Source: Bdellovibrionales bacterium (GTDB taxonomy: Bacteria; Bdellovibrionota; Bdellovibrionia; Bdellovibrionales; UBA1609). Taken from it: a stretch of 64,000 nt of DNA. Location: positions 1 to 64,000 of the forward strand of contig JAIBAM010000011.1 of assembly GCA_019695175.1 (NCBI GenBank). Reading direction: 5' to 3'. A program made the position numbers and the translations under genes. Below the pieces are notes generated by a model, which worked only from the letters and a program-made list of their open reading frames with translations, was not told the DNA's origin and did no database searches. How positions within the stretch are numbered: position 1 is the first letter of the stretch; each line of letters opens with the position of its first letter. Positions 2,247 to 32,595 of this stretch are shown piece after piece.

Positions 2247-2255
2247 CCCCCCCCC
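2247..2255. repeat. C9 homopolymer tract
   Basis: Nine consecutive C in an intergenic region just after a gene end. Tracts of exactly the same length occur at 11857-11865 and 32587-32595. Confidence 0.9.
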
Positions 2256-6138: not shown

Positions 6139-6961
6139 GAAGTTAATGAATTCTGGAATTATGATCTATTTTCTATTCCTCGCGGTTTTTGCATCGGCTG
6201 AAACAGTGTGGAATCCACCCTCGAATCATCAACAGTTTTTATCCTATGGACTTTTTTTTGATCCACAATCTATGATTATCTTAAAAAGTGGTCGAAGAAG
6301 TTGGGGAGCAGTGGGCGGATCTGTTGCCATTCTTGAAGTCAATGATCAAAAGTGGAAACCGCAATACGTTTTGCATGTCTCCGCAAACTCATCTTTTCGT
6401 TTTCCCCCAGAACAAGATGGAGTGCTTCATACGGAGACTATTGATGCTCGTTTGGGTGCTGCTGTGGATTTGAAGTTTTCTGAAAGTTTTCGGGGAACTA
6501 TTATTTGGACCCATCAATCCGGACATATTTCTGATAACGTCACCGATCCTGATTTAATTGGTCCAGACCTTAGTAATGAGTTGGTGGATTTTCGCTGGAT
6601 CAAGGATGTAAATAAAAATTGGAGATTCGGCGGGGGATTTCGTCCTTTAATCCTATCAAGTCCTAAGATGTCCTTTTTTGGCGGGCATCAGTTTGTCGAG
6701 TGGTTTCCCTACGGAGTCTATCGAAGTCACTGGTCTCCCTTTGCAGCTGCTGGTCTGGAAGAATATGGTGTCACTAAAGTGGATTTAACTCTGCATGTTC
6801 AAATGGGTTGGGTTGTTGGAGATCATTTTAGTGCGGGACCCACCCAAGCCATGCGCTTCGTATTAGGGGCTTATAATGGTCAAGATGCACGTCTTAAGTA
6901 TGTCAGCTTTAAAAAGAAGAAAGATGATTTTGTATACGCTGGACTTTTCTTCGATTTCTAA
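6110..6961 (+). CDS. Outer-membrane beta-barrel-like protein
   Basis: A 283-residue protein with signal peptide (...FLFLAVFASA), then many alternating short strands rich in Trp, Tyr and Gly, ending in Phe (LFFDF). This is the pattern of an outer-membrane barrel. The start at TTG 6110 is supported by GGAGG six bases upstream, inside the end of the previous gene; an in-frame ATG at 6146 is the alternative and would also leave a signal peptide. It resembles DUF1207-type proteins only loosely. The 3' end overlaps the converging gene on the other strand by about 50 bases. Confidence 0.75.
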   Translation: MQTKKNSLFKKLMNSGIMIYFLFLAVFASAETVWNPPSNHQQFLSYGLFFDPQSMIILKSGRRSWGAVGGSVAILEVNDQKWKPQYVLHVSANSSFRFPPEQDGVLHTETIDARLGAAVDLKFSESFRGTIIWTHQSGHISDNVTDPDLIGPDLSNELVDFRWIKDVNKNWRFGGGFRPLILSSPKMSFFGGHQFVEWFPYGVYRSHWSPFAAAGLEEYGVTKVDLTLHVQMGWVVGDHFSAGPTQAMRFVLGAYNGQDARLKYVSFKKKKDDFVYAGLFFDF

Positions 6962-8648
6962 AGTGTAAAAGATATTGAGTCGAGAAATTTCCCAGAAGAA
7001 TTGCGATTAAAATATTGAAACTCAGTTCGGAACGACTCGATAAAAAAACAAGAGAGGTTAAAAGCAGACCTATTCCTATTCTGGTTTTTGTGTTGAGAAA
7101 AACTAAAATGGATCCGAAAATTGCAAAAACTCCCAAGGAGAGATGATTGAAAAAAGTTAAAGGAGTTTTATGGATAAAATCTAGGTGGGGAAGGATCTGA
7201 ATTAGGGAATGGGAGATTAATTGATTTGAAAAAAACCCTATTATAAAAGGCAAAATCATAAAATGGGGGCCCGCAAAAGTTTCAATTAAACTACTTAATA
7301 AAAAAGTGCTAAAAAGAAGCGTTGTCCAATGGCCTAGGGAAACGGTGGCGGAGTTTAGAGTCCAGGACAGCAGAATCAAAAAAACAAAGGACCAAGTTAC
7401 AGGAAGACTTAACACCCAGTTGTGTTTTTGTTGAGGTAAGGGGTTTAAAATTGTTTGAGAGGAAAGAAAAGGTTGAAAAGATTCCGTAGGATAAAATTGT
7501 GCGATGGAATTTTTAAGAGTTTGAATGATTGTATGTAAAATTCCCTTTGGAAAAAGAGCATAAAATAAACCAAGCAGTGACTTTCCTGCTACGGATAAAC
7601 TCAAATTGCCGCTGAGTTTAGGTGTGAAAACAATAAGGTATTGGGCTTCCCAAGATTCGGGTTCAAATTTTTCTTTAAATTTTGCCAGGGATTTAAATCC
7701 ATAAAAATTGTTGAAATGATTGTAGATCCAATGGAGCATTTTATAAGTGTTGGGATGGTTGGGGGTCTCACTAGTCAGTTCTGGGGTCAAGGGAGAAAGA
7801 CCTAGCGTGACTTCACGAGCACCTATTTTTTTTAAAGCAGCCATGGCTTCAATGATCAGTAACTCACTGGAGCCAGCAACTGAATTAGGGGAGCGCATCA
7901 GATCTACCAAATACCATGATTGTCGCGCGGGGATAGGTACTGCGGCGAGAAAGGCCTGACACTGCCCCTTATAAACCAGTTGAAAATACTTTTTCTGGGC
8001 GTGATTTTTAAATAAATCTACTTTATTTAAAAAATCAAGGGTGGCGCATTTACGATTCTGGAACCAATCTTCTTTTAATTTTTCCACGGTTTGAAATTCT
8101 TGTGGGGTAGCTTGTAAGGGATTAAACTCTTGGACTCGGCCCCCTTGCTTTTGCAGCTTTTTTGCGGAGGGTAGGATCTTAAAGAAATCAGAACTGTGGC
8201 GGCGTTCATTCAATTGAATCCAAGGTTCTTGGCCAATTTGTAAAATATAGGAGGGAAGCCCCTCTTGGCGTACAAGGTCAACCAGCTCTTTGGAAGCGGG
8301 TAAGAGCAGGGGTGACTTATTATGATCAAAGGCTGTTTGTATAAATTGTTGTAACAATGTGAGCCATAGGTGTTTAGGTCCCACAGGATCACCGGCGACC
8401 ACCCAGGCTGTTGGAGTCTCCACATAGGCAATACTGGCTTGACTGTTGGATTCTTGATCCGAGCGCAGATGAAAATAAAGATAGTGATCATAAGAAGTAA
8501 GGAAAGCGGTACTTGATAATCCAAATTTATTTATAAGATCAAGATGACTCATAAATTTTTTCGGGAACATCGAACTTATTTGGGGAAAGGGAAGAATTTT
8601 TCCATAAGGATTTTCCCTTTTTACCAGGGGAGAGAAAAAAGAATTCAT
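6909..8648 (-). CDS. DUF2156 (MprF C-terminal-like) acyltransferase with membrane domain
   Basis: A 579-residue protein. The first about 345 residues match the DUF2156 / phosphatidylglycerol lysyltransferase catalytic fold, a GNAT-like pair that moves aminoacyl groups to lipids or acts on related substrates: AWVVAGDPVG, a Lys-rich helix, and the late GFKSLAKFKEKFEPESWEAQYLI block typical of the family. The C-terminal about 170 residues contain several hydrophobic segments, giving a catalytic-then-membrane order opposite to MprF. The start at 8648 overlaps the upstream stop as ATGA and has GAGGA nine bases before it, so it is translationally coupled to the receiver-TPR gene. The substrate is unknown. 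Confidence 0.8.
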   Translation of the reverse strand: MNSFFSPLVKRENPYGKILPFPQISSMFPKKFMSHLDLINKFGLSSTAFLTSYDHYLYFHLRSDQESNSQASIAYVETPTAWVVAGDPVGPKHLWLTLLQQFIQTAFDHNKSPLLLPASKELVDLVRQEGLPSYILQIGQEPWIQLNERRHSSDFFKILPSAKKLQKQGGRVQEFNPLQATPQEFQTVEKLKEDWFQNRKCATLDFLNKVDLFKNHAQKKYFQLVYKGQCQAFLAAVPIPARQSWYLVDLMRSPNSVAGSSELLIIEAMAALKKIGAREVTLGLSPLTPELTSETPNHPNTYKMLHWIYNHFNNFYGFKSLAKFKEKFEPESWEAQYLIVFTPKLSGNLSLSVAGKSLLGLFYALFPKGILHTIIQTLKNSIAQFYPTESFQPFLSSQTILNPLPQQKHNWVLSLPVTWSFVFLILLSWTLNSATVSLGHWTTLLFSTFLLSSLIETFAGPHFMILPFIIGFFSNQLISHSLIQILPHLDFIHKTPLTFFNHLSLGVFAIFGSILVFLNTKTRIGIGLLLTSLVFLSSRSELSFNILIAILLGNFSTQYLLHFRNRRKVQRIQNHLSSF

Positions 8649-9805
8649 TGTAAGGTTCCTCGAGAAGAAAATTGAGAGACTAAGCTCTGAATTTGAGGGT
8701 GGTGGGGGCAATATTGTAGAGCCAAATGCAATAATTTTTTGTGCTCTTGGGGGGAATCGACTAATTGGACTAATTTTAGATAAGGAAGTGGAGCGCAAGG
8801 GTTAAAATTCAAAGTATTTCTGAAATAATTAATGGCTTTAATCCGTTGTCCTTGCTTTTCAGCAAAGAGTCCTGCGAGTAATAAAAATTCCCATCTATTT
8901 TCATCTAATTTAAAGGCTTTTTTTAAAAGAGATGGGATATTTTTTTGAGGTTTAGTTTTAATGAACCTTCTTGTTTTCATAATGAGATCTCGGGAAGGCC
9001 ATGCGTTTAATACTCGTTTGGAAATGAGTGATAAAAGCTCCTCCCAATTCATAGAGGATGTGGATTTTAATTTTGTTGTGGAGGACTGAGGGTGATCAAT
9101 ATATAAGTCGCCGATAAGGCGGAATTTTTGAATCAGCGAAGGGTCACGGCTTAAAAAAACCATGGGTAAGCTGCGATCCTGGGTTTTTTTTTTGAGCTGT
9201 AAACACCAGTTTGTAATGTTTTCGTCACAGGATTTAGGATCTAGAATAAGGGCTCCGATTTTTGTTTTATTTCTATTAAAATACTCAATAAAAGATTTTG
9301 AGTCCGTGAATACATGGAGTTGGGACCAGTGACCTAAGTTTTCTTTTTTAGTAAATAAATTTGATTCAATAAATGCGTGATTCAGAACTAAAATATGATT
9401 TCGTTGCTCCCAACGCAACTGATGGGCTTGAATGATTCCATCAGAAAAATGGGAAAGATTAAAGGGTCTTAGTAGGAGGCGATCTATACGAAAGTGGATG
9501 GGCTTATTGTTTTTTTGTGAGAAAAGTGGAGTGGGGTTACAATCGATGAATATTAATGGAACGAGGTCTAAGTTTCGATTTTGTGCTATTAAATTAAAAA
9601 AATTATGATGACTTTCTAAGTCCAAGTGTTCTGCGGACGAAAAAATAATAAGATCTATTTTGTGGGTGAATTTTAAAATAAGCTCTTGGGTGTTTTCAAT
9701 ATTCTGAGAGTGAAGTACGGACTTGTAGCCGACATGGTTCAAAAAACGTGTGATTATTTGCGAGGACCTAAGGTCACTTTCAAATAACAATGCAGTTTTT
9801 GCCAT
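8645..9805 (-). CDS. Degenerate receiver domains plus TPR protein
   Basis: A 386-residue protein. Residues 1-120 look like a CheY-like receiver (MAKTALLFESDLRSSQII...), but the phosphoacceptor region is atypical. Residues 135-240 look like a second, more divergent receiver (HILVLNHAFIES... IGALILDP). The C-terminus has TPR-like helices (FAEKQGQRIKAINYFRNTLNF). It probably acts as a protein-interaction or phosphorylation-independent signalling scaffold. The 3' end overlaps the acyltransferase start (ATGA), which suggests the two products work together. Function unknown. Confidence 0.7.
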   Translation of the reverse strand: MAKTALLFESDLRSSQIITRFLNHVGYKSVLHSQNIENTQELILKFTHKIDLIIFSSAEHLDLESHHNFFNLIAQNRNLDLVPLIFIDCNPTPLFSQKNNKPIHFRIDRLLLRPFNLSHFSDGIIQAHQLRWEQRNHILVLNHAFIESNLFTKKENLGHWSQLHVFTDSKSFIEYFNRNKTKIGALILDPKSCDENITNWCLQLKKKTQDRSLPMVFLSRDPSLIQKFRLIGDLYIDHPQSSTTKLKSTSSMNWEELLSLISKRVLNAWPSRDLIMKTRRFIKTKPQKNIPSLLKKAFKLDENRWEFLLLAGLFAEKQGQRIKAINYFRNTLNFNPCAPLPYLKLVQLVDSPQEHKKLLHLALQYCPHHPQIQSLVSQFSSRGTLQ

Positions 9806-10084: not shown

Positions 10085-11662
10085 ATGGTTCATTTAACAC
10101 AAATAGCAAAACATTATGGTAGCAAAACTCTTTTTAATAATGCCTCTTTTCAGATCAATCCTGGTTCCAAAATAGGTTTAGTTGGCCCAAACGGGGCTGG
10201 AAAAACCACTTTGTTTCGGCTGATTATGGGCGAGGAAACTCCGGATATGGGTCAAGTCACTCGATCGGAAAAAACCGTGGTGGGATATTTTTCCCAAAAT
10301 ATTGAAGAAATGAAGGGTCGAACTGTTATTGATGAGGTTAAATCAGCTGGAGGTAAGGTAGAACCTTTGCAGCTAAGAATAAGAGAAATCGAAGAGCTTT
10401 TAACCACGGATCTTGATGAAGTTAAAATGGAAAAAATTTTAACTGAGTACGGAGAATTGCAGGCTGAGTTTGAGCGTTTAGGGGGATATGACTTGGAGGC
10501 TCGAGCTGCCGAAATTATCACTGGACTTGGTTTTCCAATTGATTGGCATTCCCGTCCAACTGAAAGTTTTAGCGGTGGTTGGAAGATGCGAATCGCCTTG
10601 GCAAAGATACTGCTTTTAAATCCAGATGTACTCCTTATGGATGAACCGACCAATCATTTGGATGTGGAGTCCATTGTTTGGTTGGAAGACTGGCTTATGA
10701 ACTTTAAAGGTGCTTTGTTTATGACCAGTCACGATCGGGATTTTATGAATCGCTTGGTGACCAGTATTGTGGAAGTGGCAAATAAAACAATTACTGTTTA
10801 CTCTGGAAACTATGATTTTTATGAACGAGAAAAAGAAATTCGTAAAGAGCAACTTATAGCAGCCGCTCGTCGTCAAGATGAGATGTTGGCAAAAGAAGAG
10901 GAGTTTATTGCACGATTTGCAGCTCGTGCTTCCCATGCGGCTCAGGTCCAATCTCGGGTCAAAAAATTAGAAAAAATTGAGCGCATTGAAATACCTACCG
11001 AGGAAAAGGAAATTTCTTTTGTTTGGCCGGTTCCTCCCCGAGGGGGTGAGGAAGTTGTTAAAATAGAGAGTTTAGGTAAAACCTGGATTACAGAAGAAGG
11101 TAAAAAAATCCCTGTTTTTGCAAATGCCACGGCTTTGGTAAAGCGTTTGGATCGCGTGGCAGTTGTCGGGGTGAATGGTGCAGGGAAATCCACATTACTT
11201 AAAATTGTTGCCGGACAAGTGGAGCCGACTCAGGGGAAAGTCACTTTAGGAGCCAGTATTGAGGTGGGTTATTTTTCTCAAAATTCATTGGACGTACTAC
11301 ATCCTAATAATACTATTTTGGAAGAAGTCCATTCCAGTATTCCCACGGCCACTTTAGGTTATGTGCGGAGTTTGTTGGGAGCCTTTAAATTTTCTGGAGA
11401 CGAAGTTGAAAAAAAAATCTCCGTTCTTTCAGGAGGAGAAAAAAGTCGAGTTGTACTGGCGCTGATTTTAGCTCGACCGGTTAATTTTCTCATTCTGGAT
11501 GAACCCACAAATCATTTGGACATACAGTCTCGTGGGGTTTTATTGGAGAGTATAAAACAATTCCCCGGAACAGTTATGATAGTGAGTCACGATCGACATT
11601 TCCTGCGGCAAATTACCACGCGCACATTTCGTTTAGATCGGCATGAATTAATTATGGATTGA
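10085..11662 (+). CDS. ABC-F family ATPase
   Basis: A 525-residue soluble protein with two ABC domains and no membrane segments. Walker A motifs are GPNGAGKT at residues 34-41 and GVNGAGKST near 362-370. Signature motifs are SGGWKMR and LSGGEKSR, and Walker B regions LLMDEPTNHLD and LILDEPTNHLD. The linker between the domains (about 240-305) is charged and helical, as expected for the P-site tRNA-interaction motif of ABC-F proteins. These bind the ribosome E site and help translation or give antibiotic resistance. The subfamily cannot be fixed by eye, but the length fits housekeeping Uup/YbiT/YheS-like members. Monocistronic. Confidence 0.95.
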   Translation: MVHLTQIAKHYGSKTLFNNASFQINPGSKIGLVGPNGAGKTTLFRLIMGEETPDMGQVTRSEKTVVGYFSQNIEEMKGRTVIDEVKSAGGKVEPLQLRIREIEELLTTDLDEVKMEKILTEYGELQAEFERLGGYDLEARAAEIITGLGFPIDWHSRPTESFSGGWKMRIALAKILLLNPDVLLMDEPTNHLDVESIVWLEDWLMNFKGALFMTSHDRDFMNRLVTSIVEVANKTITVYSGNYDFYEREKEIRKEQLIAAARRQDEMLAKEEEFIARFAARASHAAQVQSRVKKLEKIERIEIPTEEKEISFVWPVPPRGGEEVVKIESLGKTWITEEGKKIPVFANATALVKRLDRVAVVGVNGAGKSTLLKIVAGQVEPTQGKVTLGASIEVGYFSQNSLDVLHPNNTILEEVHSSIPTATLGYVRSLLGAFKFSGDEVEKKISVLSGGEKSRVVLALILARPVNFLILDEPTNHLDIQSRGVLLESIKQFPGTVMIVSHDRHFLRQITTRTFRLDRHELIMD

Positions 11663-11856: not shown

Positions 11857-11865
11857 CCCCCCCCC
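11857..11865. repeat. C9 homopolymer tract
   Basis: Nine C between the 3' ends of two converging genes, identical in length to tracts at 2247 and 32587. Confidence 0.9.
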
Positions 11866-14086: not shown

Positions 14087-14629
14087 ATGAGAAATATATG
14101 GGGTAATGTTTTTGCTTATTTGATGGCACTGTCGCAGGTGTTAAGTCCTGTAGCCATGGCAGCAGATACCTCCATCGCTGTGTTGAATATCAGTGGAAAC
14201 GTTCCAACGGTGTTCAGTGTAACTGCTAGGGGGTTACCGGGCGATTTGGATTTGACTCCTAATGTGAGTGTGGCCAATCGGTTGCTGGGGATCCTTCATT
14301 TTAAATACAATGCAGATGTGGCCAGTATGACTTTAGCAAGCAGTACAGCCAGTGGAGTCCCTGAAAAATCAGGAACAGCCTATGGGTTTGGAGCGGCTGG
14401 GTTTAAAGTCGCTGTTACTGCAGGTTGTTCGAGTGTGGATGCAACTTACAACACAGCATTTTTGCTTACGAATGCGGGTGTAGATGTGAAAAGTGCAGCC
14501 GCTGCGACTTTGACTGCCGGTGTGGAAGAAGACTGCAGTTTGACGGCGACTTGGGCTGGAACAACTTCGACTCTTCCTCTTGCAGGAAAATATTCTATGG
14601 TCATCAATTTGACTATGATTTCGAACTAA
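14087..14629 (+). CDS. Fimbrial major subunit-like protein (copy 1)
   Basis: A 180-residue exported protein: signal peptide ending PVAMAADT, then a strand-rich Ala/Thr/Val-rich mature domain with two Cys spaced about 46 apart (TAGCSSVDA, EEDCSLTA). It ends in alternating hydrophobic residues (YSMVINLTMISN), like a beta-strand used for donor-strand exchange. It is a close paralogue of the gene at 21987-22547; NVPTVFSVTARGLPGDLDL is nearly identical in both. Because chaperone, usher and tip genes lie between the two copies, I infer that this is the shaft subunit of an archaic-type chaperone-usher fimbria. AGAGGGA precedes the ATG. Unusually it is on the opposite strand from the rest of the cluster. 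Confidence 0.75.
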   Translation: MRNIWGNVFAYLMALSQVLSPVAMAADTSIAVLNISGNVPTVFSVTARGLPGDLDLTPNVSVANRLLGILHFKYNADVASMTLASSTASGVPEKSGTAYGFGAAGFKVAVTAGCSSVDATYNTAFLLTNAGVDVKSAAAATLTAGVEEDCSLTATWAGTTSTLPLAGKYSMVINLTMISN

Positions 14630-14670: not shown

Positions 14671-14698
14671 AGTAAAAGGGTCGAGGGCCTTTTTACTC
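14671..14698. terminator. Bidirectional hairpin terminator
   Basis: Arms AGTAAAAGG and CCTTTTTACT (one bulged base) lie between the converging ends of the subunit gene and the tip-protein gene, with T-rich sequence on both sides. Confidence 0.6.
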
Positions 14699-15646
14699 CG
14701 TTGTGGTTGCAGTAATAGTGATATCATCTTGGTGATTTCCTCCAACCAGATTCAATCCGTTTAAACTTCCCACTACAATTCGAAGGGGATAAGCCAGTCC
14801 ACTGAGCGTGGTTTGGCCATTACCCGATAAACCTGTTACGGGTACAGAGCTACTTGTGCTCAAATTAAGCAGGGAAGAATTCGCATAAAACAAGTAAGGA
14901 ACAAGAGAGTTTTTAGCCGGATTTATGTGATGTAATTTCCCGTTGTGAGTGGAGGAAAAAGTCACACTAAATCCAGCATTGGTTCGGATGCGAAGATCAA
15001 AACTGGCACTGGACCCTTCCGCCAGTGTGCCTAAATTTATATTTCGTGTGGTCGATCCAAGCGAAAAACCTCCACCTGAGTCTACCAGAGAGAGTGCGAT
15101 CATTTTTAGAACTTGAACAGTGAGAGTCATAGAGGCACTGGCGACAGGAGTGACGAAGGCTAAGGGATTATCACCCTCATAAAGATTGATCGTGAAAGTG
15201 TCATTGTACGTTCCTGAACTGAGAAGAGTGGGAGTTGTTGCCAAAGAATAGGGAATATCCAAATAGTATAATATGATTTGGGAAAGGTTGGTTCCGGTTT
15301 GAAAACCGCCCTGCAGGACGTCATTGTCACTGGTGATATCAGGAACATCTTTGATAATATTGGAAAGGCTGTTTTCTTTATAAATTTGGTAGCGCGCCGA
15401 AAAACTTCCACTGTTCGCTGCTCTTTGGGAATAACTGGAGGCTCCGCCTTTGCTGATGCCAATGCCATAACTACAAGAATCCGCATTAGCTTTGTCCACG
15501 CGGATTTGAACCGCCACATGAGTGAAATTTAAATTCCAGTCGATGTTAATATTATTTGTTGAAATGGAAAGGCCACAATCAGCGTGGGATTGTAATGTGA
15601 AGCTCAAGGTTACGAGAGAAAAAAATATTGGTATCCACATAATCAC
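14693..15646 (-). CDS. Spore coat U-like fimbrial tip/adhesin protein
   Basis: A 317-residue exported protein with signal peptide (...LQSHA) and two strand-rich domains. Features typical of spore coat protein U (SCPU) domains are the start of the mature chain (DCGLSISTNN), the middle (FTINLYEGDNP) and the end (DDITITATTTE). SCPU proteins are pilins or tip adhesins of archaic chaperone-usher systems. Length suggests two tandem pilin-like domains, as in a tip adhesin. The start lies two bases from the usher stop, so it is the last gene of the chaperone-usher-tip operon. Confidence 0.8.
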   Translation of the reverse strand: MIMWIPIFFSLVTLSFTLQSHADCGLSISTNNINIDWNLNFTHVAVQIRVDKANADSCSYGIGISKGGASSYSQRAANSGSFSARYQIYKENSLSNIIKDVPDITSDNDVLQGGFQTGTNLSQIILYYLDIPYSLATTPTLLSSGTYNDTFTINLYEGDNPLAFVTPVASASMTLTVQVLKMIALSLVDSGGGFSLGSTTRNINLGTLAEGSSASFDLRIRTNAGFSVTFSSTHNGKLHHINPAKNSLVPYLFYANSSLLNLSTSSSVPVTGLSGNGQTTLSGLAYPLRIVVGSLNGLNLVGGNHQDDITITATTTE

Positions 15647-15647
15647 C

Positions 15648-17873
15648 TCACAGACCTTTTTGTTTTAGTTGAATAACACCCAGATCAAAATCAGTAGGGG
15701 TCGATGGACTGAGTGTAAATTCAATAGGCTCATAAATATCTGTGGCTATTTCCAGGCGGTATTTTCCAGGTTTGAAGCCTTCTGAACGAAGGAGTCCTTC
15801 CCTATTAGTGAAAATTAAAATGGGAGGATCCTCTTTATGTGTTAATGGAATAATATAGCCCGCTGAGGAGGAAAGCGGAGCTCCATCCGGACGATGAATT
15901 TCCATACCTAAATAAATAATGGCATCTGTTCCCACATGAAAAACATATCCACTTTTGTAGGTAGGATAGAGATTGAAATGATCCCGTGGCAAAGCTGTAT
16001 TTGGGGGTAAGTTTTGGGAACCCAAATGAAGTGTGGTCAAATTGTAAGAGGAAAGTTCCGGGGCCACGGCAGAGCCGAACTCATCTGTGAGAGCGGTGTA
16101 GGAATCATCGGATTGTGGATTGAGTCGGATTTTTTGCGCACTTAAATTTTTCGTATTGTTGATAATAGCAAAACTGTCAGTCACAGGACGACTGATGGCA
16201 AAATGTCCGTCGGCAAAGACTAAAGCTGTACTCAACTGAAGGGTGGTTGTATTAAGGGTGTTTTTAGAGGGAGAGTCTGAGGTCAGTAAGTCCTCTTGTT
16301 GTTTTTGAATGGTCACTTCATGGGAGGCTATGGCTTTCATGCGATTTCCATTGTACTGGATTTGCCCATTGTAACCTTTTTCACTGCGATCTTCATTGAT
16401 GCCAGCTTGGATAATGGAAGATCCAGCTCCATTGGAAGGATTGTAGGTCCAGTTCACATGACTAGAATTATCACTGCTGCTATGACTTGCAGTGACTACT
16501 TGTCGGTCCTTAGGAAAGGACCATAATAAAAAGCCAAGAAGAGTGAGATCATTACCCCCATGAACTGTTTGCGAGTGACGGGCCGTAAGGCTTGTTGTAA
16601 TTCCATTGTCCCATCTTCGGTTTAAACCTGCAGTGATCGAGAATGAATCGCTCACATCGGGTTTGTTTTTTCGATTAATTTGGTAAGTCATACCGAAGCT
16701 CATCGACATATATTTGGAAATTCCTCGGGTCAGACTTCCTGCAAGATCTGCATATTTTTGGATATCAGCAAAAGGTAATTCTAGCTGAGTAAAATCTCGA
16801 TTGTAAAAAGTCACACCCAAATTATAGGATCTTTGCGTTTTGAAAGGTCCATTGTAATCTAGGTAAAGATATTTAGTGAGCAAGGCCCATCCTGTTGGTG
16901 TGTCGCTGTCAGAGTGAAAGGCAGGTTCTAATTTAAAAAAACCAAATTTTGTCGAGAGCACCCCTTCCATTCCCAGGACAGACTGGGTTTTGTGGGCTTG
17001 GGCGTTCACTCCTAGAGTGAAGTGATCACTGAAACCATAACGATGAAATCCCGTAAATAATAAATTGTTGTTTTCATAGCTTCGGTCCCCGCGATAGGGT
17101 GATGAAAGAGCTCCCAAAGCATAATTATATTGGTGGAGATTTTTTTTGAGCAACTCCGTGTTGGAGAAGTAAGAGTAGTTAAGGACTTCTTGTCGACCTA
17201 CATCATCAATTATTTCTAAACGAATATCATTTGCTCCTCCGTTGAATGGGAATTCCTTGAGTTGATGCTTTCCGGCTGGTAAATCGAGAAGTTGATGGAG
17301 TTGCTCATTGATCCATACATAAACTTTAGCGGGTCTTTTAAGAAAAATTTCGTAGTTTCCAGAGGGATAAGTGAGTTGAGAAGGTTGCATAGAAAATTGT
17401 TTGGTAAGTGCTAAACCCGCCATAGGTTTATAAAGTTGAAAATGCGTGATTGGATAAATCAGGTCCCCCATTTGTGTTCTTACCATGGAATTGGGAAAAT
17501 CCTTGATCAGTCGCGTGTCCTCGCGATTGAAGGGTCTTTCCGTAGGGCCCATTTGGCCCCGATTTTCGGTGTAACTTCCAAAGCCTTCAAATACTAAACT
17601 ATTTAAATTTATTCCAAGCTCTAGAAGCCCTCTCACTGGGGCTCGTCCATCTGAATGGGATAGATGATTGCTGCTTACAGAGTCAGCAACATTAATGTTG
17701 AGATAACTGCTTAAGGTGGCAGGATATTCCAATTCCTCATCTTGGGGGGTTTGTCCTATTTTGCTCAGAGAAGAAATCCGAGGTCGGCGAAGCTCTGGAG
17801 GAACTGAGATATCAATTCTTAACTGGGATTCCTGGTAACGAAGAATCAGGCCGGAACCATTAAAATGGTCCAA
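15648..17873 (-). CDS. Fimbrial outer-membrane usher, main part
   Basis: The 741-residue remainder of a PapC/FimD-type usher, the outer-membrane channel that assembles chaperone-delivered subunits. It holds the end of the N-terminal domain (GLILRYQESQLRIDISVPPE), a long barrel region with repeated aromatic-ended strands, and C-terminal periplasmic domains. It has no signal peptide of its own and no good start. The frame continues upstream without a stop to the A9 tract at 17917-17925, where the short frame 17912-18244 encodes the missing N-terminus. Adding one A would fuse both into an usher of about 865 residues, a normal length. So the gene is either frameshifted, decoded by slippage, or mis-sequenced. 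Confidence 0.85.
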   Translation of the reverse strand: MDHFNGSGLILRYQESQLRIDISVPPELRRPRISSLSKIGQTPQDEELEYPATLSSYLNINVADSVSSNHLSHSDGRAPVRGLLELGINLNSLVFEGFGSYTENRGQMGPTERPFNREDTRLIKDFPNSMVRTQMGDLIYPITHFQLYKPMAGLALTKQFSMQPSQLTYPSGNYEIFLKRPAKVYVWINEQLHQLLDLPAGKHQLKEFPFNGGANDIRLEIIDDVGRQEVLNYSYFSNTELLKKNLHQYNYALGALSSPYRGDRSYENNNLLFTGFHRYGFSDHFTLGVNAQAHKTQSVLGMEGVLSTKFGFFKLEPAFHSDSDTPTGWALLTKYLYLDYNGPFKTQRSYNLGVTFYNRDFTQLELPFADIQKYADLAGSLTRGISKYMSMSFGMTYQINRKNKPDVSDSFSITAGLNRRWDNGITTSLTARHSQTVHGGNDLTLLGFLLWSFPKDRQVVTASHSSSDNSSHVNWTYNPSNGAGSSIIQAGINEDRSEKGYNGQIQYNGNRMKAIASHEVTIQKQQEDLLTSDSPSKNTLNTTTLQLSTALVFADGHFAISRPVTDSFAIINNTKNLSAQKIRLNPQSDDSYTALTDEFGSAVAPELSSYNLTTLHLGSQNLPPNTALPRDHFNLYPTYKSGYVFHVGTDAIIYLGMEIHRPDGAPLSSSAGYIIPLTHKEDPPILIFTNREGLLRSEGFKPGKYRLEIATDIYEPIEFTLSPSTPTDFDLGVIQLKQKGL

Positions 17874-17911
17874 AGCTATCCAACGGGAAGGGATTTTGGA
17901 TTGGAGTATTT

Positions 17912-18244
17912 CTAAATTTTTTTTTCTTTAAACCAATCGGCTATCACCAAACGTTTTAAATATTCCACTAAATTTTGCTTTTCAAGAAGTAGAGGTTTCC
18001 CCTCCTCAACTTGAGTGAGAATATTTCCTAGAGGGTGGGATGAGTTTTCATAGTAAAGAGGCATAACGACTTCTTGAGGTGAACTGGTGGCATTGGAAGA
18101 TTTTTTAAAAAGACTTTGAAGTTTTTCTTGAAATATTTTTTCTTTTTCTTCACTCCATCCCTCAGACGAAGAATCCTCAGCAGAGGTTCCTTGGGAAAAA
18201 AGAAATAGACTTAAAATTAAAGAACTAATCTTGAGCAATATCAA
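17912..18244 (-). CDS. Usher N-terminal fragment (frameshifted)
   Basis: A 110-residue frame with signal peptide (ILSLFLFSQGTSA), then a charged helix and a stretch (VVMPLYYENSSHPLGNIL) resembling the usher N-terminal domain that receives chaperone-subunit complexes. It ends at a TAG right after an A9 tract. With A10 the reading would continue KKNLEILQSKIPSRWIALD into the 741-residue usher frame. Its start overlaps the chaperone stop by 20 bases, as in a coupled operon. I therefore read it as the 5' part of the usher gene, not a separate gene. Confidence 0.75.
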   Translation of the reverse strand: MILLKISSLILSLFLFSQGTSAEDSSSEGWSEEKEKIFQEKLQSLFKKSSNATSSPQEVVMPLYYENSSHPLGNILTQVEEGKPLLLEKQNLVEYLKRLVIADWFKEKKI

Positions 18245-19040
18245 GACTCACCTTCAAGTTCCCACGAGTCAATTCTTTGGGCCAAGGTAGGATAAACATT
18301 CTTGATTTTTTTGCGAGGATATTTTGGTTAAATAAATCTCTTAAACTGTTTCCAGAAATAAGAATGGGTTTTGCATCTTTTGTTGCTGTGAGTGAAATTG
18401 TTAATTTGGGGTTTTTAATTACTTGGTGAGCGGTGCCTTCATTCTCAATTTGAAGAACTAAATTTTCTTTATTTTCTTTAGCAGGAAAAGCCTCCACTTT
18501 TAATTTCGGTTTGGCTCCGGTGGGAGTGATATAGAGCGATCCGATGTAGCGTGTGGAAATAGCAATTTTGGCTACGGCGTTCTTGTAAACTTTATTAGGA
18601 TCATCCAAATCTATAGGTAGTTCTTCCGCGATGATTCGAAATGGAATTTCAACTGGGCTGTTTGATTCGCCGATCCAGGATACACGGATGGTTCGAGTTT
18701 CTTTTGGGTTGAGCACAAGTTGAGGAGGATAGATATTAAACTTCTTGGCAATTTCTTTGGCGGCTTCTGGAGTGACTTTATAAGTTTCTTTTCCCATCAT
18801 GTCTGGTTCTCTGGAAACAATGGAAATTTGTACCGGAATTTTTGTGGCATCTAAGTTGGTCACAGAAAAGGAGACGGTAGCGCCTGGTCCCGTTGGGGTG
18901 AGCTGGGCTACAATGGGATTGAATTCAAAGGAGGCTGAGGCTTCTGTCCCTGCGAAGTGAATGAGTCCCATGAGTCCAAACCCGATGCAAAACGGATAGA
19001 TGGATTTGCGGTTTTTTTTATACGTGGAGGAATAAATCAT
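18225..19040 (-). CDS. Periplasmic fimbrial chaperone (PapD-like)
   Basis: A 271-residue protein with a signal peptide (...GTEASASF) and the two Ig-like domains of fimbrial chaperones. Family features include an N-terminal FEFNPIVAQLTPTGPGATVSFSV strand pair, the YPPQLVLNPKETRTIRVSW strand that carries donor residues, and the IPFRIIAEELPI strand. It binds unfolded subunits in the periplasm and delivers them to the usher. The minus-strand AAGGAG is seven bases before the ATG. First gene of the chaperone-usher-tip operon; a 52-base palindrome begins about 40 bases upstream of the start. Confidence 0.9.
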   Translation of the reverse strand: MIYSSTYKKNRKSIYPFCIGFGLMGLIHFAGTEASASFEFNPIVAQLTPTGPGATVSFSVTNLDATKIPVQISIVSREPDMMGKETYKVTPEAAKEIAKKFNIYPPQLVLNPKETRTIRVSWIGESNSPVEIPFRIIAEELPIDLDDPNKVYKNAVAKIAISTRYIGSLYITPTGAKPKLKVEAFPAKENKENLVLQIENEGTAHQVIKNPKLTISLTATKDAKPILISGNSLRDLFNQNILAKKSRMFILPWPKELTRGNLKVSLDIAQD

Positions 19041-19082: not shown

Positions 19083-19134
19083 CTCATCTTAAATAAATAA
19101 TTTAAATTTATTTAAATTATTTATTTAAGATGAG
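19083..19134. repeat. Perfect 25-bp inverted repeat before the fimbrial operon
   Basis: Positions 19083-19107 and 19110-19134 are exact reverse complements with only TT between them. The arms begin CTCATCTTAAATAAATAA. It lies 43 bases upstream of the chaperone start codon, in the expected promoter or leader. It could be an operator for a dimeric regulator, a cruciform or an mRNA hairpin. No T-run follows on the chaperone strand. Confidence 0.9.
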
Positions 19135-19558
19135 AGGTTAGACTCAAAAATATCAACCTTTGGGTCAGAGAAGAAGAGGGCTGGGGAAGTTTAGGACGAA
19201 AGTCCTGGAAGTGTTTTGATGTTTTTAGGTGGATATCAAGTGCGATCCCTTTTACAAAGGAAAAGTAGCTGCTGCAATACTTGACAGTTTTCTGTGGGAA
19301 TAGCTATCGGAATGAACTAATGAACTAATGAACTAATGAACTAATGAACTAATGAACAACTAAATATTTGCTGCAGCAGACAATTCAAAATCGGGGGGCT
19401 TTTGTTTGTCGGACTTCGATCAAGGTCCTGTCAGATCAAATCGTGACTACTGCACGTCACTTCACTTCACGAATGTGGTTCCCGACTTTCAACTAAAAAT
19501 GAAACATCTCCGGAAAAGCCTCTGGACAAAAATTAACCTATTGGTTTGTTTTAAGGCT
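19135..19558. other. Intergenic region upstream of fimbrial operon
   Basis: No gene seen. It holds the ATGAACTA tandem repeat and, around 19431-19454, a short sequence (CAGATCAAATCGTGACTA) that recurs almost exactly at 35970 and in part at 13288. It presumably carries the fimbrial operon promoter. Confidence 0.5.
19312..19357. repeat. 8-bp tandem repeat (ATGAACTA, about 5.75 copies)
   Basis: Five exact ATGAACTA units and a partial sixth, about 270 bases upstream of the chaperone start. The unit length is not a multiple of three and the copies are perfect, so length changes by slipped-strand mispairing are likely. Confidence 0.9.
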
Positions 19559-21986: not shown

Positions 21987-22547
21987 TTAATTAGAAACCA
22001 TAGTGAGTGTGATTCCCATAGAATACTTTCCTGCTTTGGGTAAGGTTTGACTGGTTCCCGTCCAACTCGCCATGAGAGCACAATCCTCTTCAATTCCAGT
22101 AATTAAAGCCGCTGAGAGAGCACTTTTGATATCAGTCCCAGTGTTGGATAAAGTAAATGGGAGATTGTAACTGGCGTCGACGCTCTGGCATCCCGTTTCA
22201 ATGGAAACCTTAAAACCACCACCTTGAAAACTGTAAGGGACACCGGAGGCCTCAGGTCCACCACTTAAAGTATCGCTGGAAATGGTGAGACTTACGACAT
22301 CGCTATTATATTTAAAATGAAAAAGACCCAGAGTGCGACGGTTGACGATCACATTGGGAGTTAAATCCAAATCTCCGGGGAGACCTCGAGCCGTTACACT
22401 AAATACCGTGGGTACATTAGCGCTGACGTTAATGACAGCCACAGCCGTATCTGCAGACCAGGTGGATCGGGGAAATAGTGAAATGAAACAAAGAAACTCA
22501 AAAAGAATCTGGGTTGTTCGGGCTAAGTAGATGGGTTTCCTCTGCAT
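21987..22547 (-). CDS. Fimbrial major subunit-like protein (copy 2)
   Basis: A 186-residue exported paralogue of the subunit at 14087-14629: the same order of strands, the same two Cys (ETGCQSVDA, EEDCALMA) and the same C-terminal end (LTMVSN). The N-terminal leader is different and longer (MQRKPIYLARTTQ...), with cleavage probably after TWSA. No good Shine-Dalgarno is seen. It lies on the chaperone-usher strand but several kilobases away, separated by unrelated genes. Could be an alternative shaft subunit or adaptor for the same fimbria. Confidence 0.75.
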   Translation of the reverse strand: MQRKPIYLARTTQILFEFLCFISLFPRSTWSADTAVAVINVSANVPTVFSVTARGLPGDLDLTPNVIVNRRTLGLFHFKYNSDVVSLTISSDTLSGGPEASGVPYSFQGGGFKVSIETGCQSVDASYNLPFTLSNTGTDIKSALSAALITGIEEDCALMASWTGTSQTLPKAGKYSMGITLTMVSN

Positions 22548-24493: not shown

Positions 24494-25877
24494 ATTTTTT
24501 ATTATTGTTTTTGTGTTTTTGTTTTTTTCCATCCTTACGGTTTCCTTTTTACAGGTCTTCTTTTTTGAAAATGAACGTTTGCGTTTTTTGGATCAAAGGT
24601 TGGAAGCCATTGCTTCCACTTTGATTGCTTCAGGATTGTCAATGGATCTGATTGATAATCTGGAATCCACGGATGACCTTATTCATGATTTGTTGGGCGA
24701 AGAGAGAGTAGATCAAATAATTAATATTTATTCTTTAGAGGGGGATATATTAGCGCAAAATTATACCGGAACTAATTTTCCATTGGAATTTAATCCTTCT
24801 GAACGGCGGCAAACCTATCAGGTGAAAGATCGAACTGTTCGTGTGCTCAATATTCGGAGCAATCAATTATTGATACAGGTGGCCACTTTAATGCCGGCGC
24901 CACTGAGTCGTTCTAATTTTAAAAACATACGATTCCTTGGTTTCATCGGCGGGGTGTTTATTTTGCTTGTTATTATCGCCTATCTTAGTTCTGGGGTTTT
25001 GTTCCATCCGTTGCGGAAATTGACTGTGGAATTTAAAACCATGTCCCACTTGTTAGAAAAAAAAATGGGTCAACCTCTGACTGGATTTGTGTTGGGATCA
25101 GAGATTAAACGTCTTTCCCGGAGTCAAGATAAGACAAAGGACGATTTTCAAATTCTGTGTGAGGAAATTAGAGTTTTTCTCAATAACTTAGAATCTTATA
25201 CGAAGTCATTTCACACCCAAATGGCCATATTGACCCATGAACTAAAGACACCCTTAACTCTTTTACAGAATTTTTTAAGTGAAATGAGCCTTCATATAAA
25301 TAAAGAAAACTCACGGGCTCGAGTGAAGGAATTGATCCAGCACAGTCGAACGGAAATTAGTACCATGGTTGAACTAATTAATAATTATTTACAATGGAGC
25401 GTTCTCTCAAGTAGCCCCAGCCAACCTCAGACTATTTATGCACTCAAAGTTTCTTCTGTGCTACACAAGTTGGTCCACGACCTCAATATTTTGGGTCATC
25501 AGCGGATACGACTGGAATTTATTGAGGATCCAACGGTGTTTGTTTTGCCAGAACATTTGCAACAGCTTTTTTCTAATTTACTAGGAAATGCTTTGAATTA
25601 TTCCCCTGATCCAACAGAGGTCTTGTGTCGTGTGGAGAGAAATCGGGTTTTGATTAAGGATAAAGGCCCCGGGATTTCAGTGGACGTATTGAAACATTTA
25701 GGAGAACCTTTCAACCGTGGTCCTTCAGGAGTTTTACAAAGTACGGAAAGGAAAAGTTCTGGTTTAGGACTTGCCTGGGTTCATTCCTTATGTGAAAAGT
25801 ATCACTGGAAACTTACTATTGATTCTTCCTCTCAGGGAACCTGCGTGGAAATTCAATGGGGGTCGGAATCCGTTTGA
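24483..25877 (+). CDS. Sensor histidine kinase
   Basis: A 464-residue membrane kinase: N-terminal membrane segment (IVFVFLFFSILTVSFLQVFF), an extracytoplasmic sensor of about 110 residues without obvious ligand motif, a second membrane segment (about 160-182) and a short linker. The dimerisation domain has His252 in THELKTPLT, and the ATPase domain carries N (LLGNALNYSP), DKGPGIS and SSGLGLAW boxes. It starts at TTG inside the regulator's 3' end (11-base overlap), so it is translationally coupled. It phosphorylates the neighbouring OmpR-type regulator; the stimulus is unknown. Confidence 0.95.
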   Translation: MRRRFFIIVFVFLFFSILTVSFLQVFFFENERLRFLDQRLEAIASTLIASGLSMDLIDNLESTDDLIHDLLGEERVDQIINIYSLEGDILAQNYTGTNFPLEFNPSERRQTYQVKDRTVRVLNIRSNQLLIQVATLMPAPLSRSNFKNIRFLGFIGGVFILLVIIAYLSSGVLFHPLRKLTVEFKTMSHLLEKKMGQPLTGFVLGSEIKRLSRSQDKTKDDFQILCEEIRVFLNNLESYTKSFHTQMAILTHELKTPLTLLQNFLSEMSLHINKENSRARVKELIQHSRTEISTMVELINNYLQWSVLSSSPSQPQTIYALKVSSVLHKLVHDLNILGHQRIRLEFIEDPTVFVLPEHLQQLFSNLLGNALNYSPDPTEVLCRVERNRVLIKDKGPGISVDVLKHLGEPFNRGPSGVLQSTERKSSGLGLAWVHSLCEKYHWKLTIDSSSQGTCVEIQWGSESV

Positions 25878-32586: not shown

Positions 32587-32595
32587 CCCCCCCCC
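32587..32595. repeat. C9 homopolymer tract upstream of mscL
   Basis: Nine C on the plus strand, G9 on the mscL strand, about 20 bases before the mscL ribosome-binding site and downstream of the FGE-lipoprotein stop. Confidence 0.9.

Follow-up and report, generated by a model that had tools for sequence, protein, structure and literature searches.

A possible slippage deletion at a nine-A run splits the usher gene of a chaperone-usher locus in a Bdellovibrionales bacterium

The usher gene of a chaperone-usher locus in the genome of a Bdellovibrionales bacterium is carried in two reading frames that meet at a run of nine A residues. This arrangement raises the question of whether one base has been lost from the DNA or only from the assembled sequence, and whether the break silences the gene, switches it or is bridged during expression. 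We examined the locus itself, its counterparts in related genomes and the other frame breaks at A/T runs in the same genome. Coordinates without a locus label refer to the window, that is, the whole stretch of 64,000 nucleotides that was analysed.

The chaperone-usher locus and its split usher

The features of the locus are as follows.

14087..14629, plus strand: intact open reading frame for a secreted pilin-like protein of 180 aa (putative role)
14693..15646, minus strand: probable pilus adhesin or tip subunit, 317 aa, intact, directly 3' of the usher stop (from its likeness to the usher neighbours of relatives)
15648..17927, minus strand: 3' portion of the usher gene, in a different frame from the 5' portion and 759 codons long from stop to stop
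17917..17925, minus strand: nine-A run (T9 on the plus strand), the site of the frame break, by direct reading
17912..18244, minus strand: 5' portion of the usher gene, 110 codons, beginning with TTG and ending in TAG (from the list of open reading frames)
18225..19040, minus strand: intact gene for a PapD-like periplasmic chaperone of 271 aa, which overlaps the start of the usher (Pfam PF00345 and tblastn)
21987..22547, minus strand: second secreted pilin-like protein, 186 aa, a paralogue of the one at 14087 (putative role)

The locus combines a PF00577 usher with an adjacent PapD-like chaperone. It has in common with the chaperone-usher pilus operons (PF00577/PF00345) the order chaperone, usher, adhesin and the presence of pilin-like genes nearby, whereas the usher is split and divergent, its full-length frame being broken at the A9 run. 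The score of the chaperone against PF00345 lies barely above the cut-off (E = 7e-5, 23.2 bits vs. 23.0 bits), and in tblastn searches the protein matched the chaperones adjoining the ushers of five relatives with E-values of 3e-35 to 4e-21. The adhesin, which matched no Pfam family, shows 42% identity over 310 aa to the protein adjoining an usher remnant in genome G027 and ∼ 30% identity to the proteins adjoining the ushers of G042, G053 and G057. The two pilin-like proteins are 60% identical to each other, and their genes lie on either side of the chaperone-usher region, one on each strand; neither gave a Pfam match that could identify it as a pilin subunit with a donor-strand Ig-like fold. 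The usher gene is the only one in the genome (2.6 Mb, 97% complete, a draft of 56 contigs). Upstream of the chaperone, at ∼ 19085–19133 and 19312–19358, the sequence contains, as judged by eye, a long AT-rich inverted repeat formed by ATCTTAAATAAATAATTTAAATT with its complement, together with GAACTAAT repeated in tandem.

On the plus strand, the sequence around the frame break reads ...TTCTAAA(T9)CTTTAAACC..., with the T9 run at positions 17917–17925; on the minus strand, the N-terminal frame ends with TTT AAA GAA AAA AAA ATT TAG. The initial annotation had the TAG codon directly following nine A residues; the nine-A run is there, and two T residues separate it from the stop codon. The further proposals, that one extra A unites the 110-codon frame with a 741-codon frame and that both halves are otherwise intact, agree with our results: one base added in the run fuses the two frames into ∼ 865 codons, of which the break is the single lesion found, and the 741-codon part (15648–17873, counted from the TTG at 17873) is fully open. 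The run also provides, by direct reading, an in-phase A_AAA_AAA heptamer. The joining of frames alone is weak evidence because ±1 edits at random positions outside the long frames fuse two 80-codon frames in ∼ 0.9% of cases (257/29,576); it is the match to intact ushers that makes the reading of a split usher convincing.

That match comes from the second frame, which aligns with PF00577 over profile positions 5–540 of 549 (E = 5e-11, 42.6 bits vs. a cut-off of 27.1 bits) and, over its full length, with the ushers of relatives. The usher is divergent, with 22–27% identity to these relatives, and a comparison with PDB gave no significant sequence match. The second frame encodes the second half of the N-domain, the beta-barrel and the C-terminal domains, and by itself has no signal peptide. 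Its start aligns to columns 58–100 of the N-domain profile built from relatives (hhalign probability 85%), so it begins in the middle of that domain and the first half must therefore be encoded upstream. The 110-codon frame, overlapping the stop codon of the chaperone gene, opens with an apparent signal peptide; it had been annotated as signal peptide plus usher N-domain. We infer from its position, the signal peptide and a forced alignment that it encodes the first half of the domain; a sequence match of this half alone does not bear the assignment out. Against the N-domain profile it gave nothing significant in hhalign (E = 0.53) or in Pfam, and its score was equalled by 11 of 100 shuffled sequences, so the attempt to prove an N-domain by profile failed.

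The usher in related genomes

Among 141 genomes of the order, 23 others have an usher match, and in 20 of these the usher is one open frame of 802–864 codons. The ushers of five relatives, read at the DNA level, contain no run longer than 7. Because the relatives' ushers are unbroken and have no long run, both the split and the run are particular to this genome; on the sequences compared, the split is a lesion of this genome and no conserved recoding site.

Within the family, usher matches were found in three of the 47 genomes, including the one studied here, and G001, a genome of the same genus that is 74% complete, yielded none. In G027, a member of the same family, the usher is cut to the last ∼ 123–130 C-terminal residues beside an intact adhesin (L182:6437–7776), and no chaperone was found in the stretch that was read. 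Since G027 keeps only the C-terminal end of the usher, loss of the pathway does occur in the family and, judging from these genomes, the locus has a patchy distribution and some relatives have lost parts of it. A strain-level comparison was set aside: the same-genus genome has no detectable usher, and when genome records were searched for exact copies of the tract and its flanking sequence, none turned up in any other record. A search for the usher protein in the same collection of records found nothing.

Frame breaks at A/T runs across the genome

To place the usher in its genomic context, we asked where in 2.595 Mb of its sequence a ±1 change at a run unites two long frames. The genome was read in stretches, each analysed alone, and genes cut at the stretch ends may have been missed; broken genes were told from adjoining genes by eye, so the break counts are approximate. 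There are ∼ 938 coding A/T runs of at least 8 bases, of which ∼ 930, including more than 170 of at least 9, are in frame. Two in-frame A9 runs of the window lie at 11409–11417 and 25057–25065. Breaks at such runs were found in five homology-supported genes and in two candidates.

A9: usher, homology-supported
T9, L109:13994 (C34): cheA-like gene, in which the break parts Hpt from HATPase and CheW
A8, L068:15900 (C15): MBOAT acyltransferase, second part from profile position 84
T8, L022:3968 (C13): sulfatase-family envelope enzyme (sulfatase/phosphoglycerol-transferase-like), membrane part in the other frame
T8, L053:291 (C44), at a contig end: AbiEii-type nucleotidyltransferase (defence gene), second part from profile position 17
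A8, L020:8099 (C11): candidate, membrane protein, no family match found
T8, L012:11477 (C3): candidate, unknown protein, no family match found

At runs of 6–7 bases there were ∼ 3 breaks among 5,848 runs, an upper estimate by eye, which makes them more than 10 times rarer than at runs of at least 8 (5–7 of ∼ 938; odds ratio 10–15, p = 0.002 or less). Such a dependence on length is what slippage predicts, either in the DNA or in sequencing. Each of the seven breaks lacks a single base (two-sided p = 0.016 for the seven, 0.06 for the five homology-supported ones). The broken genes act in the envelope, chemotaxis or defence, and no recognised housekeeping gene is among them.

Most of the frame pairs united in this way are adjoining genes. 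Among those at A/T runs of at least 8 bases that were judged by eye to be of this kind are, for example, the end of a cobalamin-adenosyltransferase-like gene, murA, xseA/xseB, rimP/nusA and a response regulator/kinase pair. Within the window, the frames 6909–8798 and 8645–9805 overlap around a C6 run at 8749; they appear to be two genes, with no break. A T6 run upstream of an Hpt-like frame (L153:5513, C55) marks another possible frame break.

Coding A/T runs of at least 9 bases number 192, against 229 expected in codon-shuffled genes (ratio 0.84), while runs of 6–8 are enriched 1.5- to 2.1-fold over the same expectation. Runs of C or G of at least 9 bases occur 20 times in the 2.6 Mb (39% GC), compared with the ∼ 3 that base composition would predict; the majority are intergenic and a few lie inside long frames. 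The three C9 runs on the plus strand of the window (2247–2255, 11857–11865 and 32587–32595) are all intergenic.

Origin of the frame break and expression of the usher

The most likely reading, to which we give about an even chance of being right, is a real and recent slippage deletion that turns the usher down or off. Slippage during DNA replication would have cost the run one base, either in the strain that was sequenced or in the greater part of its population; the base is presumably absent from the DNA of the cells, and the deletion appears to be recent. Such a single-base deletion would affect only the usher and leave the rest of the chaperone-usher operon intact, and the regaining of one A could restore the frame, so that the change would be reversible in principle. 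At the A run of swrA, slippage is biased towards deletion, with rates of ∼ 1e-4 for 9 to 8 and ∼ 1e-5 for 8 to 9 (quoted in PMC2831843). Defective mismatch repair was considered as a cause and rejected: both mutS-like genes are open, and with these genes intact there is no sign of a mutator.

Expression of the split gene is probably leaky. Bacterial RNA polymerase slips efficiently at nine A residues, inserting an extra A (PMC5009743), and at A/T runs its slippage mostly inserts (PMC5574713). By analogy with this published behaviour, the polymerase may add an A at the nine-A run and so give rise to a minority of full-length usher, and a backward slip of the ribosome at A_AAA_AAA could offer an additional route. 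As some full-length product is probably still made, the usher would be turned down rather than strictly null.

The same data would be obtained if the true run were A10 and the usher intact, the missing base being an assembly or sequencing error, which we regard as a minority possibility to be taken seriously. The genome is a draft, many reported pseudogenes stem from assembly errors (PMC11017572), and all of the five to seven broken genes are short by one base, the usual direction of homopolymer undercalling. However, more than 99% of the long coding runs are in frame, which excludes gross or systematic miscalling and holds the error rate to at most ∼ 1%, a level that is still possible, and random error would not be expected to spare housekeeping genes. 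The classes of broken genes are better explained by genuine mutation under weak selection than by errors made at random, albeit in a small sample. The loss in one direction is compatible with slippage biased towards deletion, with undercalling and with rescue by RNA polymerase. A different outcome of a real deletion would be irreversible early decay, in which the need for the pilus has ceased and the usher is heading to loss. The remnant in G027 and the scarcity of ushers in the family point this way, but the single lesion, the open 741-codon part and the intact operon partners speak against it, and we rank it slightly behind error, likewise as an alternative to be taken seriously. It overlaps the preferred reading of a slippage deletion in that decay could start from a real deletion.

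Two further explanations assign the run a function. The choice of switch, slippage or error in the initial annotation was the right set; several observations given below speak against a dedicated switch. A selected contingency locus, with A9/A10 switching kept to vary pili among cells, would account for the long A run in the 5' region of a surface-structure gene, where it sets the frame and is potentially reversible, and for the other broken genes acting likewise in the envelope, chemotaxis or phage defence; it has precedents in manA (A9) and wbeL (A8) (PMC3441752) and in swrA and inlA (PMC2831843). By this resemblance, the A9 site has the anatomy of the known poly-A switches and possibly works like one. 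Nevertheless, the run is neither conserved in the relatives (none of the five ushers examined has a run of 8 or more) nor part of a genome-wide enrichment of coding A/T runs of at least 9, and the locus is patchy, which leaves a selected switch improbable. Programmed recoding, in which the usher would normally be produced through transcriptional slippage or through a −1 ribosomal frameshift at A_AAA_AAA, could draw on a run long enough for efficient slippage by bacterial RNA polymerase (PMC5009743) and on a heptamer in the correct phase. It is disfavoured because the site is not conserved, 20 of the 23 matching relatives having one frame of at least 802 codons and the five that were read having no long run; moreover, there was no RNA structure in the 97 nt after the run (z = −0.34) and no Shine-Dalgarno-like stimulator was seen upstream. 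We view it as very improbable.

Comparison with known poly-A frameshifts

One of the closest known systems is found in Vibrio cholerae O1, where poly-A tracts in wbeL and manA mediate phase variation of the O antigen genes (PMC3441752). As in the usher, a one-base loss in a run of 8–9 A close to the 5' end of a surface-biosynthesis gene results in a truncated product. In V. cholerae, experiments recovered and selected both alleles, the change in manA was shown to be reversible and wbeL was tested for non-standard decoding of its run (PMC3441752), whereas here there is one consensus sequence from an unstudied organism, and the gene codes for an usher. Poly-A frameshifts near the 5' end also occur in swrA of Bacillus subtilis (8/9 A) and in inlA (6/7 A) (PMC2831843); in these genes reversion is measurable and switching frequencies are known, with deletion exceeding insertion in swrA, while the usher is known from its sequence alone. 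The presence of several genes per genome with one poly-A/T indel, otherwise in frame, is a feature of Blochmannia and Buchnera, for which rescue by transcriptional slippage has been suggested as possible (PMC3017870). Those are AT-rich endosymbionts whose affected genes include the replication genes dnaX and dnaG, in contrast to the 39% GC genome studied here, in which no recognised housekeeping gene is broken.

Implications

It is conceivable, if a long shot, that the lineage keeps several environment-facing genes, namely the usher, CheA-like, MBOAT, sulfatase and AbiEii genes, one base short as a form of bet-hedging. Transcriptional slippage would then provide low and variable expression of the broken genes, and DNA slippage to the full-length run would generate heritable ON cells. 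The evidence leaves such a multi-gene scheme unseparated from random slippage or undercalling; if true, it would be a genome-wide low-level scheme in a poorly studied group.

The kind of event that we propose for the usher is itself ordinary and known, and our literature search found no reported A-run frameshift of this kind in this bacterial group. If the deletion is real, it would be a further natural case of an A-run frameshift that silences or dims a gene for a surface structure. Annotation as plainly intact and annotation as plainly dead should both be avoided for the usher and for at least four more genes in the genome.
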